Source of the DNA: Lepraria neglecta
Lineage: Eukaryota; Ascomycota; Lecanoromycetes; Lecanorales; Stereocaulaceae
Direction: 5' to 3'
Assembly: GCA_033220425.1 (NCBI GenBank)
Contig: CM065651.1
Location: forward strand, 3,782,001-3,846,000
DNA: 64,000 nucleotides
Part shown: piece after piece, positions 8,690 through 63,571 of the stretch
Position numbering within the stretch: the first letter of the stretch is position 1
How the letters are laid out: every line of letters starts with the position of its first letter
Made by a program: the position numbers and the translations under genes
Notes under the pieces: model-generated
Told to the model about the DNA's origin: nothing
Databases searched by the model: none
Seen by the model: the letters and a program-made list of their open reading frames with translations, nothing else

Positions 8690-10160
8690 TTTGTGTCTCA
8701 CCAGTGACAGGTAGAGGCTGTGCCGTAAATATCGCTTTCTGCGCAAGGTCAGCTGGAATCGGTAAAGTTGTTTTTCAAGAATGATTTCCAAGAGGTTGGT
8801 GGCTCTTAACTCCTCTCGAAGGGTTGGGAGTTTAGTCGGTATGATTTCCTGCGTTAGGTGGAGCAAAAGCCTACACTGTCCCGTAGATGTTGCTCCATGC
8901 GTGAGGTCAGACGAGGCCGATTTTATTGAGAGGTCTCCCGAGTGTGCGTGCGGCATATTGGGCTGAAACAGTAGTGGGTTTGCTGTAGGTAGAGTAAGGA
9001 AGACACGGCAGCAATGTCATTGGTTGAGATGTAAGCATGACAGGGCTAGTGGGCTGACCTGCAGTCACCTCTCAGAGGAGTCGATGCGGCTTCTGAAATG
9101 CTGCTTACCCACCGATATCGAAAAAGCAGTTTGCACCTATAATAGCCCGTATCGGACTGAACTTTGAGTTGCATGTAAGCAGTCTGTTGAAAAGCACCGA
9201 GTAGAGATCTTTTAACCCTAATGACGGAAAGTCTATCCGTACGGCGTGAGGCCAAAGCCCGCGTCTTGCGTTTAAAGGAGATGGTTCACCCTGCACTAGT
9301 TTGACAAATTGTGCTTCATAGTACGTTCCAAGATGTCTCAAAGAAGTACCTGGTACTTCGCTTTACTTTGTGGGCTGTAATGATTCTTGCGCTTGAGTCT
9401 CGCGCGAGCCTGCGTCGTGTGGCTGTGCGCAGCCCATCCGGGTGCTATTGTGTGTTGTTATGGAAGCCATGCTTCATATTTGTTCTCGTCAACAATCCCC
9501 AAGATTTCAAACATCAAATTTCTTTTGGTCGAAGATTACATCTGCTTGTTATTCTGCCGCTCTCTGGCTGGTATTGAGGTCAGTTGCATTGCCGTAATTG
9601 GGAGCCTGTTTATCATCTTTTTTCTGCTTGAGCTCTTCGGCAACATGGACCACAACGTAACGGAGATCTGGAAACAAATAGTTTTTATAGAAGACGATAT
9701 CAAGCTCACATTGAGATAGAAAGGGTGCCTTTGTCTGATACTCAATGAATCCAAAAACAAAATTACGTTTTCAGAGACACTCTGAATATGCTTATAAACA
9801 ATTCTTTCATCATCTTCGTCCATCCTCTTTAGGAGACTTTGGGACAGTTGCAATCCCGTACACAGGTATCTTGGAAATGTATTTGGAATCCGTCGTCTTG
9901 CACCTGAGTGATGTCGTGACATATGTTGCGAAGCTTGAAGGAGCATAGAGTACCTACTCGGGCTCACATTACGAAGAGCCTGAGGTCATTGTGTCAACAT
10001 GATCATAAGATTGTGTAGGTCGTCGAAGAAGATTGTAGATGTTGGAAAAATTTTCAGTGCTTGCCGTCCTGTCCATAGGGTCCTTTCCGAAAGATATAAA
10101 TCCTGGCTTCATCCACTATTAGTTCCACAGCTTTCGTACACGCACCTTGCACATGTAGTG
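8690..10160 (-). pseudogene. Long decayed minus-strand gene, family unknown
   Basis: One minus-strand frame stays protein-like for over 1.4 kb although about a dozen stops or more interrupt it. Stretches include RTASTENFSNIYNLLRRPTQ, SKYISKIPVYGIATVPKSPK, LDIVFYKNYLFPDLRYVVVH, YYEAQFVKLVQGEPSPLNAR, and a Thr/Pro/Ser-rich C-terminal part. Almost all the stops are explainable as CAA, CAG or CGA changed by C-to-T, with no obvious frameshift, which suggests RIP-type damage. The family is not recognised, so it could be a host gene, a duplicated gene copy, or part of an unidentified element. Shorter ORFs in this area (for example 9536-9967 minus, 9387-9719 plus) are shadows of it. Confidence 0.45.
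8703..8926. repeat. Diverged direct duplication of about 55 bp
   Basis: Positions near 8705-8760 and 8870-8926 align (shared TGCCGTA/TCCCGTA, ATATCGCT/ATGTTGCT, TGCG..AGGTCAG). The spacing is about 165 bp. The duplication lies in the C-terminal part of the minus-strand gene relic, so it may be an internal protein repeat. Confidence 0.4.
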
Positions 10161-10543
10161 CCCTCCTACCCTTGGGCAAGTCTAGGCTCACGCATTGATG
10201 AGAAGCAGTCCTTCTCGGTCCGAAGCTGTGGCTCCCCTGCCAGAAAAGAATGCTAGTTTTCCAACTTCGAAGCATTTCAATGTTAGTGCTATCACACTTT
10301 AATGTTACTGGCTAGAATCATCGGTAACTGTGGGGGGTTTGGCCCATATTTACAACAGTCTCATGCTTTCAGGCTCCTCTACGGCATTAGTGCAGGGCAG
10401 CCCGCTGAAGTGTGGTGGTAAAATTGTACTTCGAACAACTCTTGATGGTCGACCGACTACTTAAGGGCTTGGCGGTTTAAACCGGTTGATTTGTTCTTTT
10501 CCCTTAGTAGTTGGTCCAGTTTAAGATTTGAACTGGACCGTAT
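10161..10543. other. Boundary region with palindromes, no gene
   Basis: No convincing ORF. Two inverted repeats stand out: a perfect 12-bp palindrome CGGTTTAAACCG at 10473-10484, and a 10-bp-arm hairpin GGTCCAGTTT...GAACTGGACC at 10513-10539, just before the LTR remnant. Composition is still unlike the RIP-mutated block to the right. Confidence 0.5.
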
Positions 10544-10838
10544 TGTTACGAGCCAAGGGCATGCTGGCAGGAACGCGCCAGGGGCGCATGAACTAGTATG
10601 GGCTTGGCAGGGTCTGGTTCAGACGAATCGATGTTCGACTCGTTCGACTCGGATATGGTTTAGACGAATCGGTGTTCGACTCGTTCGACTCAGATATAGT
10701 TCAGACGAATCGATATTCGACTCGTTCGACTCGGATTGCTGGGTATGAATTTCTATTGCTATATATACGGAGTACTACTTATGACTTGGAGCATCGTGCT
10801 TAACTTACTCCTACTTACTTGTTTACTATATACAATAG
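10544..10838 (+). mobile_element. LTR remnant of the family-A type, opposite orientation, lightly mutated
   Basis: It opens TGTTACGA like the sense start of family-A LTRs. Its right part (TTCTATTGCTATATATACGG, CGTGCTTAACTTACTCC, TTTACTATATACAATAG) is the reverse complement of the matching part of the A1 LTR at about 10985-11080. It therefore points opposite to A1 and is cut off where A1 begins. It keeps CpA and TpG and so escaped most of the mutation seen next door. It contains three 41-bp tandem repeats. Confidence 0.65.
10616..10737. repeat. Three tandem copies of a 41-bp unit inside the LTR remnant
   Basis: Copies start at 10616, 10657 and 10698. The core is CAGACGAATCGATGTTCGAC followed by TCGTTCGACTCGGATAT, with only a few substitutions. 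The A1 LTR carries a related TTCGA-rich tandem at 11097-11184. Confidence 0.9.
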
Positions 10839-11238: not shown

Positions 11239-11369
11239 TTAGCTCCCTCTCCTAGATTTCTCGTCCTGAGAAAATATCCTTCCTCTATACTACCTATACG
11301 ATTGACTAAATCTAAACTAAATATTCGAAGGCGTAGACTCGTCGACTCCTTTACTATCTCTACTAAAGT

Positions 11370-11830
11370 AATATATATATAAGAACTGCGAGTCTTCCGA
11401 GAAGCCAGAGAAATATAAGATTAGTAGTTCTTCTAACCGTTGTATAGAGTACGTCTATAGTAGCTACTTCTGCGATTTAGCTCTATTTTCTCCTATTTAA
11501 TAGACCTATCTTCTATAATAGTAAGAGATAAAGCTTAAAGAAGCTAAAGATATACTATTACGCTTTTCTCGTCTCTAGTATAAGGTTAAGGTTTTAGAGA
11601 AGAAAGAGCGTGAGATAGTTAAAGGGAAGCTAGTAAATATTATAGAACTCGAGTATAATAAAGGGGTATCGACCCTTAGTCCCGACGACCTCCTCTTTGA
11701 TATAACCTCCGAGTAGTTCGAGATTCCTAATAGTTTCGAGTAGTTATCCCTAGTTCCCTCCGATAGAACTCTACTAGATACTCTCTATAGTTCCTCGCAA
11801 GGTTCCTAAGAGATTTCTAGATATTTTCCG
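11370..11830 (+). other. Antisense coiled-coil-type reading frame in A1
   Basis: On the plus strand, opposite to pol, a frame reads as a charged helical protein (for example VKVLEKKEREIVKGK, then LLFDITSE) and ends with a conserved DRTLLDTLYSSSQGS stretch. Family copies at about 33900-34330 and 60800-61200 show the same frame and layout. Its last part overlaps the chromodomain on the other strand, so conservation there could come from either. The frame is interrupted by mutation. Confidence 0.45.
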
Positions 11831-32593: not shown

Positions 32594-33879
32594 TAATACC
32601 TAGATAATACTTCTATATTCGTCTCTTCCTCGAATAAATATACCTATTTATTATATTCCTAAGGGATAGAGGGTATATCTATTCCTCTCTTAACTCTTAC
32701 TTCGTTATCCCGCTAACCTTTACTAGTAACTATAGAGTTAGACTATCTTTTAGCATCGTTCTTATATAAAGCTAACGTAATATATACCTCGATCGGTCTT
32801 CGGTTCGACTTCTTATCTACTATTAAATACTACTAATACGTAGGTATAATCCTAGTAATATTTCTAGATCGATCTATTTTGAGTACTCCTCGAGCCTAAT
32901 CGATTATTAGGTTATACTTCTTTAACTAAAGTATTTCTAAAATTATATAATAGATAGCTATCCTAATAATATTAAAGGTAATCTCCTTATAGTAGCGCTG
33001 AATTATAATAGATAATAAAAGTATCTCTTCGTCTACCTTTTCTATTAATAGTATTAACTCGTTAGCTATCTAAAGATTATACTACTACGACTTCTTTCGA
33101 GTTAGTATTCTAGTTATTTATACTAGATCTCGTGAAATAAAGTTTCTAGTAGCTCTAGAATCTATTATCGCAACGGTCCGCTATCTATTAACAATTACCG
33201 GTATTTTTATATATATATTATACTACGCGGAATACAAATATTATTTAGAGGTTAATATATTAATCTCCTTATAGCTACCTCTACTATAAGGGATTACTCT
33301 TTTCCCTAATTAGGAAGGAATCCTATAAATTCTTTCTATCTTATATATTTTTGATATTTTTTATAGAGGTATATATACTATTCTATTATATAATATTCTT
33401 CTATATTCGGATTATAGACTAACTCTCGTCGTAGGTTATTCGTCTATATCTATCCGTTTCCTAGAAAAGATACGAAGTTAAGTACGATACTCTAAATAGT
33501 AAGCAAGTACTCCTATATATAGTAATAGGAAATCCCGCCAAGCTTTCTATAATCGCTTTGATTATACTACGCTTATTACGTTTATCTTTCTTAATCACTT
33601 TGATCGTACTGCGCTTATTACGCTTATCGCTTAATATACTAAGCCTTTAGGGTCTTATCCGAGTCGAGTATAGTCTAGTCTAACTTATACTATAATAGAT
33701 ACTACTCTATAAAGACGTATCTCTAGTTATAGCTCCTAGTCTTAATATTAGCTCCCTCTCCTAGATTTCTCGTCCTAAGAAACTATCTATCCTTTATACT
33801 ACCTCGTCGTATAAAATATTTAAATAAACTAACCGTCCGTCGAACGGAACTAGCTAGTAAGCTTTCCGAATTCGTGATA

Positions 33880-34340
33880 CGACTATACTCTTAATACGTT
33901 GCCAGTAGTAAGTAGTATCTTATAGGTGAAGATTCTAATAGATACTCTAACTATATCGGTAGCGGTAGGAAATACGACCTTATAGTATCGCCCCTTAAAA
34001 TACGATATATCGAAAAACGGCGTAACGAAATACTATAGGAGTTATCTAACTCTATAGGGAAGTTAGATTATCTCTAGAAATAATTAGAAGCGGTTAAGAA
34101 GGAGAAGAAGTCGATAGTAGATTATAAGCTATAAAATATTAAGGAGTTAGAGGAGGATTAACGCGTTACTCCTATTTCTTCTAACGATTTAATATTTAAC
34201 ATCTCGTCTAAATAATTCGATTTCCCCGGCGGGCTAGAAGCCCCCGAGAGTTTCGACTAGTCTTCTCTTATCTCCGATAGAACTCTTATAGATATTCCTT
34301 ATAGTTCCCCGCAAGGTTCCTAAGAGGTTTCTAGGTACTT
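33880..34340 (+). other. Antisense coiled-coil-type frame in A2
   Basis: The plus-strand frame reads SNRYSNYIGSGRKYDLIVSP, then RYIEKRRNEI, AVKKEKKSIVDYKL and LIFNISS, ending with SDRTLIDIPYSSPQGS. It matches the frame in A4 residue for residue at many places (SDRYSN, RKYNLIV, RRIEKQRNEV, RTLIDIPYSSPQGS). Interrupted. Confidence 0.5.
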
Positions 34341-60162: not shown

Positions 60163-60617
60163 TATTACGAACCGTGCGTTCCGGTATCGTATTTATAGAT
60201 TGATTCTTAATAGGGATAGAGGTATAGCTAATAAGAGGTGAAGTAGGCTTCAATAGAATACTAAGCGGGTCTGGTATATAATTAGATAATATATATTTAG
60301 TATCTAGCCTAAGAGATCTATCGTATATCGTAAATAATTAAATAGTAAGGTTAAGTATAATACTCTAAATAGTAAGTAGTACTCCGTATATATAGATATA
60401 CGAAAGTCCGCCAAGCCTCTCTTGAGCGTACTAATCGCACTACGCTTATTGCGCTTATTATTCCTAAGCGTATTAAGCGTACTACGCTCGTAGTACTTAT
60501 CGTTTAGTATGCTAAGCCTTAGGGTCTGTTCGAGTTAGATACTAATTCGTTAACTCGAACCATAACGGGCGCTACGCCCCTTGAGCGTATCCCTGATCAT
60601 GTTTCCTGATCGTAACA
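60163..60617 (-). repeat. 3' LTR of A4, 455 bp
   Basis: Best preserved family-A LTR. The inverted ends TGTTACGA/TCGTAACA are visible, with only the left end mutated to TATTACGA. Carries short repeats of CGCACTACGCTTATTGCG type. Confidence 0.85.
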
Positions 60618-60779
60618 TTAGCTCCCCCTCCTAGATTTCTCGTCCCGAGAAACCATCTATCCTTTATATTACCCTGTTATCCTAAATATTCAAAAGAGTA
60701 AGCCGTCCGTCGAAAGGAACTGGCTAGCGAGTTATCCGAGTTTATAATACGGCTATATTCCTAATACGTTAGCAGCGGC

Positions 60780-61190
60780 AAGTAGTGCCGGGTAGGTACT
60801 AAATCCGATCGATATTCTAACTGCGTAGATAGTAGTAGGAAATATAACCTTATAGTATTAGTTCTTGAGATACGCCGTATTGAAAAGCAGCGTAACGAAG
60901 TATAGTAAGAGCTATCCGATACTCTTGCTAAAGTAGGTCGTTTATAAAAATAATTCGAGTTACTCGAGAAAGAGAAGAAGAAGATAGTTAATCGAGAAGT
61001 ATAGAATATCGCTGATTTAGAGGAAGAGCAGAGGTCTTCCTATACTACCCCTGGGGGTCTAATATTTAACGTCTCGTCCGAGCGATTCGATCTCCCCGGC
61101 GGGCTGGAAGCCTCCGAGAACTTTAACTAGTCTTCTCTTATCTCTAATAGAACTCTTATAGATATTCCCTATAGTTCCCCGCAAGGTTCC
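60780..61190 (+). other. Antisense coiled-coil-type frame in A4
   Basis: Plus-strand frame with SDRYSNCVDSSRKYNLIVLV, then EIRRIEKQRNEV, ELSDTLAKVGRL, FELLEKEKKKIVNREV, NIADLEEEQRSS, LIFNVSSERFDLPGGLEASE and SNRTLIDIPYSSPQGS. Leu and charged residues fall in heptad-like spacing, as in a coiled coil. Pol is on the other strand. Interrupted. Confidence 0.5.
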
Positions 61191-63571
61191 TAAGAGGTTT
61201 CTAGATATTTTCCGTTTTATTATACCCTTTCTATTTAACTATATAGAACTAATTTCTCCTATCTAGGATCCTCTCGACCTCGTACTCTATTTCTTCTTTA
61301 ATATTATAATAGAATATCTCTTATAGTAGTATATTAAGGTCCGCTAGTTCTAAGAGTAAGATATAGAATACCGGATATACCTTGGTATTAGGTAGTAGTT
61401 AGAGTTTATAGTTAACTAGTCCCTTAACCCGTTTAATCAAGAATAGTCCGACCTTAATATAATATAGTTTCTTATTTAGTCTCGTCGTCCTTATATTTTT
61501 TATTAGTAGGTATACTTTATCCCCCTCTTTTAGCTAAGGAATATTCTTTCTTTTCTTATTAACCTATTCCTTTAACTTATTATTTAAGCTTTCGATAGAC
61601 CTTTATATATCCTTATATAAATTCTTTAGTTCTTCTATCTTAACTAAGGCTTTTTCTATATTAGGTCCTTTTCTTAGATCTAGAAATATATTAGTATTCT
61701 TTCCGTAGTTAGTAAAGAACGGCGTTAGTCCCGTTATATCTAATCTTTTGTTATTATACGCTAGTTATACTATTAGAAGTAGTAAAATCTAATTATCCTA
61801 TTTCTAGTTTATATAATATCTTAGGTATACTTCTATTATCTAATTTATATATTCTATCTATCTATTAGTTTATAGATAATATACTATTAATATCCGAAGT
61901 TTTATTCTAATTACTACTACGAGCGTTCTCTAGTAGTTAGAAGTGAATAACTTATCTCTATCGGATATTATCGACTTAGGTATACTATAATCCCTTACTA
62001 GTTTATCAAGTAGTACGAAGGCTAATTAGTCTACTTTATAGATTTCCTTGAATAGTATTATAATTCTATACTTCGATAGTTTATCTATAATAAATATAAT
62101 TAAATCGAAGGTATCCTATATAGCTAGATCCTTCGAAGGTAGTAGTTTAACTATAAAGTCTATTATAATATTATCCTATAGTAACTCTAGTATAGAAGTA
62201 AACTATATTTGTCCGTATCTAGTATATCGTACAGCCTTATTCTACTAGTACTCGATATATTCCTTAATATATTATTCAACGCGCGCTCTAAGCTTTAGCG
62301 CCGCGTATCCCCGCTCTAGGAGTTCTATAGTCTTAGATACCCCTAGGTAACCTTGTAAAGGGTCGTCGTAGTAATCTCTAATTACTTCTTTAACGTATAT
62401 ATTAGGTAAGTAAATCTTATCCTAATATTTAAGTAATACTAAATTCGGCTAGTTCTTTCGTAGATTCGTTGCGAACGTATCGTTATTATAGGTCTTTACG
62501 ATCTTGTTAGTCGTATTAGGTCCTAATATATAGAGGGTTATAGCCAACACCTAGTATAGTACTAATAATCTATCCGTTTCCTCCTTTAGGATTAGTTATT
62601 CCGTAATATTCTTTTCTACTATATAGTCTAATCGCCGGCTAAGGGTATCTACTTAACTATTATCCTTTCCTAGGGTATAGGTTATCTTGAATTTATATTG
62701 ACCTAATAGTTCTAACTATCGAACTTATCTTCTATTTAGCTCTTTCGTTATTATAAAGTTAAGAAGATTCTTATAATCCGTAAAGATAGTTAGATCCGAG
62801 CAGCTTTCTATATATACTCGCTAGTTCTATAATATATAAACTTCGGTAAGTAGCTCCTTATTGTGTATATTATAGTTCTATTCTACTACTAATATCTTCC
62901 TTAAATAGTAGATAACTAGGTACTACTTTTAGTCTTTTATTTAATATAGATATACTCTAATTACGAAATCCGAGGTATCTATTTCGATACGGGCCGGTTC
63001 GTTGGCCTGAAAGGTATAGAGTACTAGTAGATCCGTATATACTTTCTTTAATATATCGAATAATTACTATTAGTCTTTTCCCTATATAATCCGATATCTT
63101 TCTTTATAATATCCGTTAGAGGTAGTACTTTCTTTAAGTAGCCCTCGATAAACTTCCTATTAAAGTTAGCAAATCCTAAGAAACTTTGTACTACTTTGAT
63201 ATCCTATAGTATAGGCTATTTAGTAATAGCCTTGATTTTCTCCGGGCTTATACTAATACCTTTCGTACTAACTATAAATCCTAGAAATTCTACTAATTCC
63301 CTATAGAATTCGTACTTTTCTGGTTTAAGAAGAAGTTTCGCTTATAATAGGCATCTAAGGACGTCCTATATATACTCTATATATTCTTTCTTATTTTTAG
63401 AATAAATTAGTATATTATCGAGGTACGCTATCGCTATTCGATCTAAGTATACTTATACAACGTTATTAATAAATACTTAGTAGGTTACTAGTACATTAGT
63501 AAGTCCAAATAGTATTACTAGATATTTATAGTAGCTATATCTCGTTCGAAAGGCAGTTTTCCATTCTTCGC

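Follow-up and report, generated by a model that had tools for sequence, protein, structure and literature searches.

Decayed antisense genes for an apparently Zn2Cys6-like protein at the 3' end of a chromovirus in Lepraria neglecta

The antisense gene and its place in the element

The window analysed here is a stretch of 64,000 nucleotides of Lepraria neglecta (assembly GCA_033220425.1, contig CM065651.1, positions 3,782,001 to 3,846,000, forward strand), part of a genome of 42.0 Mb in 11 contigs. It contains three minus-strand retroelements of one family, A1, A2 and A4, each with a plus-strand frame opposing the end of pol. The pol domains, RNase H and integrase with a chromodomain at the C terminus, identify the host element as a Ty3/Gypsy chromovirus: A4 retains pieces of RT_RNaseH (E 8e-14), SH3_Tf2-1 (E 8e-7) and Integrase_H2C2 (E 2e-5), the latter two just under their cutoffs, and the chromodomain is recognised in a less mutated relative, L055 (Chromo, E 4e-11). 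From about 10 kb onward most of the window is depleted in CpA and TpG and carries strong repeat-induced point mutation (RIP). Judged from their sequences, the three plus-strand frames represent defunct copies of a genuine antisense accessory gene of this chromovirus.

An earlier, sequence-only reading had reported antisense frames opposite pol in these elements. They lie where it put them, but their limits had to be corrected, as the gene is longer, about 174 codons, and runs from beside the 3' long terminal repeat (LTR) into the end of pol (Table 1). Its claim that the overlap with pol accounts for only the last part of the frame was borne out, three quarters of the gene lying outside pol; the tail-to-tail overlap is 128 nt in both A4 and A2. 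The start codon is ATA in all three copies and ATG in some relatives (e.g. L054), and all three frames close with TAA after SSPQGS or SSSQGS. A Leu codon replaces the usual stop after SSPQGS in L064, and that frame continues. A1 keeps the protein layout despite its diverged DNA, as had been proposed: its identity to A4 is 43-47% in the gene vs 84-88% in pol.

The gene is antisense to pol and lies between pol and the 3' LTR, the arrangement termed aORF-3R (aORF, antisense open reading frame). We compared 58 of 75 entries (72 loci plus A1, A2 and A4), having removed 8 repeats, 7 entries with a misplaced lead or pol and 2 with little pol aligned. A 46-bp lead with a polypurine tract, then the gene, then pol follow one another in all 58, a count that is no census because the copies were picked for their similarity to this region and seven sites lack the intact layout. 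The distance from the lead start to a pol anchor is 565-618 bp, and exactly 576 bp in 44 copies. A nested reverse insertion was rejected because the position is constant. The clade of L013, L022 and L023 has the longer distances (612-618 bp) and seems to carry additional residues in the coiled coil. Between the polypurine tract and the antisense start lies an inverted repeat, TTTCTCG-TCC-CGAGAAA, which is exact in 36 of the 58 copies, differs by transitions in the others (A1 and A2 among them) and is far better conserved than the flanking unique 3' region of the LTR (U3) and the gene. The repeat may serve as a binding site or form a structure that is required at the polypurine tract.

Searching the genome through stops with the X-masked A4 frame gave at least 151 scored matches, a lower bound from which the share of all elements cannot be derived, as the copies were gathered by similarity to this region; among the matches listed, most span residues 2-164 or 3-164 of 164. 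For codon-level analysis we used 35 of 43 ungapped placements from 60 loci, dropping 5 that repeated another locus and 3 that were partial; the other 17 loci, A1 included, fell below the ungapped score (gapped, partial or of another clade). These 35 copies contain 149 TAG, 104 TAA and 3 TGA in-frame stops. Four columns account for 107 of the 256; where these columns hold no stop, they encode Gln (22 of 24) or Trp (9 of 9), which fits decay by RIP. The 165-codon core of L055 has a single in-frame stop.

Coding constraint and the encoded protein

Only transversions were counted in the test for coding constraint, because RIP produces transitions. Over the 124 codons ahead of the pol overlap, the numbers at plus-frame codon positions 1, 2 and 3 are 5554, 4646 and 11712, with 25, 22 and 60 variable sites (of 124 each), and none of 2000 column permutations was as extreme. 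The sequence-only reading had proposed a check of this kind; it is the third positions of the antisense plus frame that are favoured, which supports that frame. Transversions in the 41-codon overlap are few and even (450 at each position; 3, 3 and 4 variable sites of 41), as expected because both strands code there. The positive control on pol gave 4861, 2192 and 11383 in the pol frame.

The protein, about 174 residues long, starts with a basic stretch and ends in one that is acidic and aromatic; between them lie six cysteines with Zn2Cys6 spacing, followed by a long predicted coiled coil. The coiled coil described earlier is indeed present, but it occupies the second half only; the first half is the six-cysteine cluster, which escaped notice because RIP had converted cysteines to tyrosines. 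The less mutated L055 carries MRPCSRCVASGTQCLVGDNSDRCSNCVGGGRKCDLVV ahead of the coiled coil. At each of the six cysteine columns all 35 copies have solely TGY (Cys) or its RIP product TAY (Tyr). The Zn2Cys6 pattern is CX2CX6CX5-12CX2CX6-8C. Among 42 chosen homologs the six cysteines are at least 90% conserved and 37 match the pattern in its spacing, although in some 8 residues separate the second and third cysteines; the cysteine signature of a Zn2Cys6 (GAL4-type) domain is present.

The homologs were reached through L055. RIP-damaged X-masked frames gave no match in a Pfam search, and a protein search with an X-masked query gave none at E<=10. The L055 query retrieved three proteins (E 4e-43 to 6e-24), and its alignment with them retrieved 117 at E<=10 (113 at E<=1e-3), counting the initial three; our alignments used 42, 46 and 29 of the 117, chosen by us. 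Most of the matched proteins are unnamed, with intact homologs among them, and P0063 from Lasallia pustulata is named Zn(2)-C6 fungal-type in UniRef. Several long homologs start with MPPQRAKRSSNPAVRRREL or a close variant, which corresponds to the lead that begins with ATA in the window copies. The A1 gene belongs to another clade, that of P0017 and P0034, and shares CKNCEKAGRPEKC of P0017. In that protein, which is from another source, the sequence upstream of the start reads through the lead seen here (88% over 25 aa, E 4e-12), so the placement is not private to this genome. Evidence for it outside this genome comes mainly from P0017, with weak matches for P0031 and P0098 (E 0.003 and 0.018); P0094 gave nothing clear (E 2.9 and up), and the C-terminal extension of P0045 had no useful match to antisense chromodomain readings (best E 0.21). 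Searches of bacterial and archaeal genome contigs and of viral contigs found no confirmed relative.

Models predicted for one member from each of two clades consist of a small cluster followed by a single helix of about 62-64 residues. Foldseek against the PDB placed GAL4-type DNA-binding domains, among which we count Pho7 and 1cld, at ranks 1-18 of 26 rows for the first model and in all three rows for the second, with weak E-values throughout; the HAP1 domain superposes at 1.4 Å over 33 residues, again with weak fold scores. Two observations speak against a DNA-binding protein of this type. The curated cutoff of Pfam Zn_clus (PF00172) was not reached (12.8 bits vs 21), the family appearing at E<=1 in 14 of 46 homologs (best E 0.0033), and the cluster loop has few basic residues. 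As the Pfam score is below the cutoff and the fold matches, though mostly GAL4-type, are weak, we use the label Zn2Cys6-like and claim no proven membership. The order of a six-cysteine cluster and then a coiled coil suggests a resemblance to fungal gene-control proteins.

Table 1. Features of the antisense gene and its host elements in the window
Feature	Position	Strand	Basis or remark
A1 46-bp lead	11239..11284		inverted repeat at 11257-11273
A1 antisense gene	11287..11809	+	homology; decayed, two frames, split near 11380
A1 six-cysteine region	11378..11473	+	spacing 2-8-8-2-6
A2 46-bp lead	33748..33793		inverted repeat at 33766-33782
A2 antisense gene	33796..34323	+	homology; decayed
A2 six-cysteine region	33886..33975	+	6 of 6 Cys now Tyr
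A4 3' LTR	60163..60617	-	63572-63870 matches the left part (60163-60459); boundary at the polypurine tract set by our reading
A4 46-bp lead	60618..60663		polypurine tract (by eye); inverted repeat at 60636-60652
A4 antisense gene	60666..61193	+	homology; decayed, start now ATA, in-frame TAG/TAA
A4 six-cysteine region, Zn2Cys6-spaced	60756..60845	+	limits from codon list; 4 of 6 Cys now Tyr
A4 coiled-coil region	60870..61049	+	aligned homolog model; approximate limits
A4 tail-to-tail overlap, pol (minus) with antisense gene (plus)	61066..61193		pol stop at 61068-61066
A4 pol part (SH3_Tf2-1, integrase zinc-binding, RNase H pieces)	61066..62990	-	Pfam matches

Upstream of these features, at about 10000-10800, the window switches abruptly from gene-rich DNA of 47-50% GC without a RIP signal to AT-rich, RIP-mutated DNA. 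The segment 10664-11167, across the A1 LTR, aligns to its own reverse complement with 64% identity over 524 columns.

Evidence for 3' module exchange among elements

The mean pairwise transversion distance across the 58 copies is 0.179 in U3, 0.007 in the lead, 0.167 in the gene, 0.046 in the overlap and 0.018 in pol (300 bp). We looked for exchange in 1431 pairs from 54 of the 75 entries; the repeat and unique 5' regions of the LTR (R-U5) were available in only 861 of them. Over 480 bp of pol the distance is at most 0.01 in 108 of the 1431 pairs, and 55 of these 108 have a gene distance of at least 0.15; one pair combines zero pol transversions with a gene distance of 0.19. Pairs with near-identical pol and a divergent gene differ by 0.015 at pol third positions. 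U3, like the gene, differs strongly between elements whose pol is nearly identical. Fast evolution alone was rejected, since between the A1-type and the other copies transversions amount to 30% in the gene vs 5% at pol third positions. Rates alone being insufficient, the divergence of the gene is explained by exchange of 3' modules between elements.

It is tempting, if doubtful, to go further and regard the antisense gene and the adjoining U3 as an exchangeable cassette of a regulator plus its target, similar to the swapped repressor-operator immunity regions of lambda-like phages. Elements with near-identical pol would then carry different cassettes, and the copies would form groups that regulate only themselves. 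The distal half of U3 has a rank correlation with the gene of 0.49-0.50, and the gene is hardly correlated with the further half of pol (0.05-0.13); R-U5 is correlated with the two pol halves at 0.53 and 0.56 and with the gene at 0.25-0.26. A tight cassette is called into question by the weak correlation of the proximal U3 half with the gene (0.22-0.24), by that of the gene with the adjacent pol half (0.35-0.38), which comes near the 0.42 between the two pol halves, and by the values after removal of the A1-type copies (U3-gene 0.33 vs U3-pol 0.37). The correlated pairs are moreover non-independent, and the physical closeness of U3 and the gene would by itself yield part of their link. If true, the cassette predicts that the gene clade equals the U3 clade and that copies regulate themselves and not other groups.

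Possible function and known antisense genes

We propose that the gene encodes a dimeric DNA-binding regulator acting on the LTR of its own element, a reading to which we give a probability of roughly 0.5, with the regulatory step resting on inference. Transcription would start in the 3' LTR and head toward pol. The protein would be nuclear, pair via its coiled coil, and bind zinc and DNA in the GAL4-type manner. Its target would be LTR sequence (U3, or else the conserved inverted repeat that adjoins the polypurine tract), and its action there would set the expression of the element itself.

The low Zn_clus score and the loop poor in basic residues would suit a real protein that does not regulate transcription but serves as an accessory factor (an RNA chaperone, or a factor for nuclear import or complex assembly), making RNA or protein contacts through its cluster and coiled coil. 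The PDB sequence matches of the profile, which place coiled coils alongside LEU3 and PUT3, all at E near or above 0.1, point the same way. The cysteine spacing and the cluster-then-coil order are nevertheless GAL4-type and such domains dominate the fold lists, and we hold this explanation to be possible but the less probable one. Since the gene and pol are convergent and overlap, the antisense transcript rather than the protein might matter, through double-stranded RNA, which has been raised for plant elements (excerpts of PMC7264820), or through interference with the pol mRNA, the frame being retained for other reasons. An RNA role does not predict the excess of third-position transversions or the conserved cysteines, which makes it improbable.

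GAL4-type proteins are common in fungi, and this abundance would provide an easy origin for a host gene captured once and carried as a passenger without a role for the element. Yet many subfamilies share the gene, its place is fixed and it is under purifying constraint, and origin and role are separate questions; we consider mere cargo, too, quite improbable. That the frame is an artefact of the strand opposite pol is hardly credible: its last ~42 codons do lie opposite pol, but three quarters of it do not, and the homologs and the codon-position test together refute the idea, with the cysteines adding to the case.

The regulator that we favour shares with fungal Zn2Cys6 (GAL4-type) regulators the cysteine spacing and the cluster-then-coil order, and its predicted cluster fold resembles theirs at weak scores; it differs from them in its score below the Pfam cutoff, the few basic loop residues, a length of only ~174 aa and its being encoded in a retroelement. 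HBZ of human T-cell leukemia virus type 1 (HTLV-1) is a basic leucine zipper protein, and differs in being of an unrelated protein type and from an unrelated element. Its layout, with a gene encoded antisense close to a retroelement's 3' end, is the same according to the excerpts of PMC11963269 and PMC7264820, which describe a nuclear protein and an antisense promoter in the 3' LTR; both would hold for the Lepraria gene by inference only.

The arrangement itself is already known. The sequence-only reading was aware of none in a fungal chromovirus of this type, but the antisense gene brtn of Boty occupies the same place, between pol and the 3' LTR of a fungal Gypsy element (excerpts of PMC7264820, PMC8365987 and PMC4227169), and a Boty-like element is listed with a CHROMO domain (PMC4227169, in part). 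We compared brtn by description only, and the excerpts of the three papers mention no zinc cluster for it. Plant aORFs, namely Grande gene23, RIRE2, TRP28 of Retand and PvRetro13, have the same place and orientation as the Lepraria gene, and no zinc cluster was found in the excerpts of PMC7264820 or PMC11963269. Retand is a non-chromovirus with 2.9-6.6 kb between pol and the LTR. The Grande protein is nuclear and TRP28 is predicted to bind DNA, from which regulation was suggested (the same excerpts), and a DNA-binding, regulatory role was proposed for Retand (PMC11963269, in part). Our literature search, which most subscription journals lay beyond, found no zinc-cluster antisense gene of a retroelement. 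What is new is the protein type, its spread and the evidence for module exchange.

For the antisense genes that adjoin the 3' LTR in plant and Botrytis elements, the function is described as unknown (PMC7264820, PMC8365987 and PMC4227169, in excerpts). The GAL4-like layout, homologs in many sources and the predicted match between gene and U3 clades make it directly testable here. The gene was hidden by RIP and by its short length, and predicted copies may bear the names of host zinc-cluster proteins, as P0063 does. These elements may carry their own regulator and, if so, an HBZ-like arrangement would have arisen separately in fungi.
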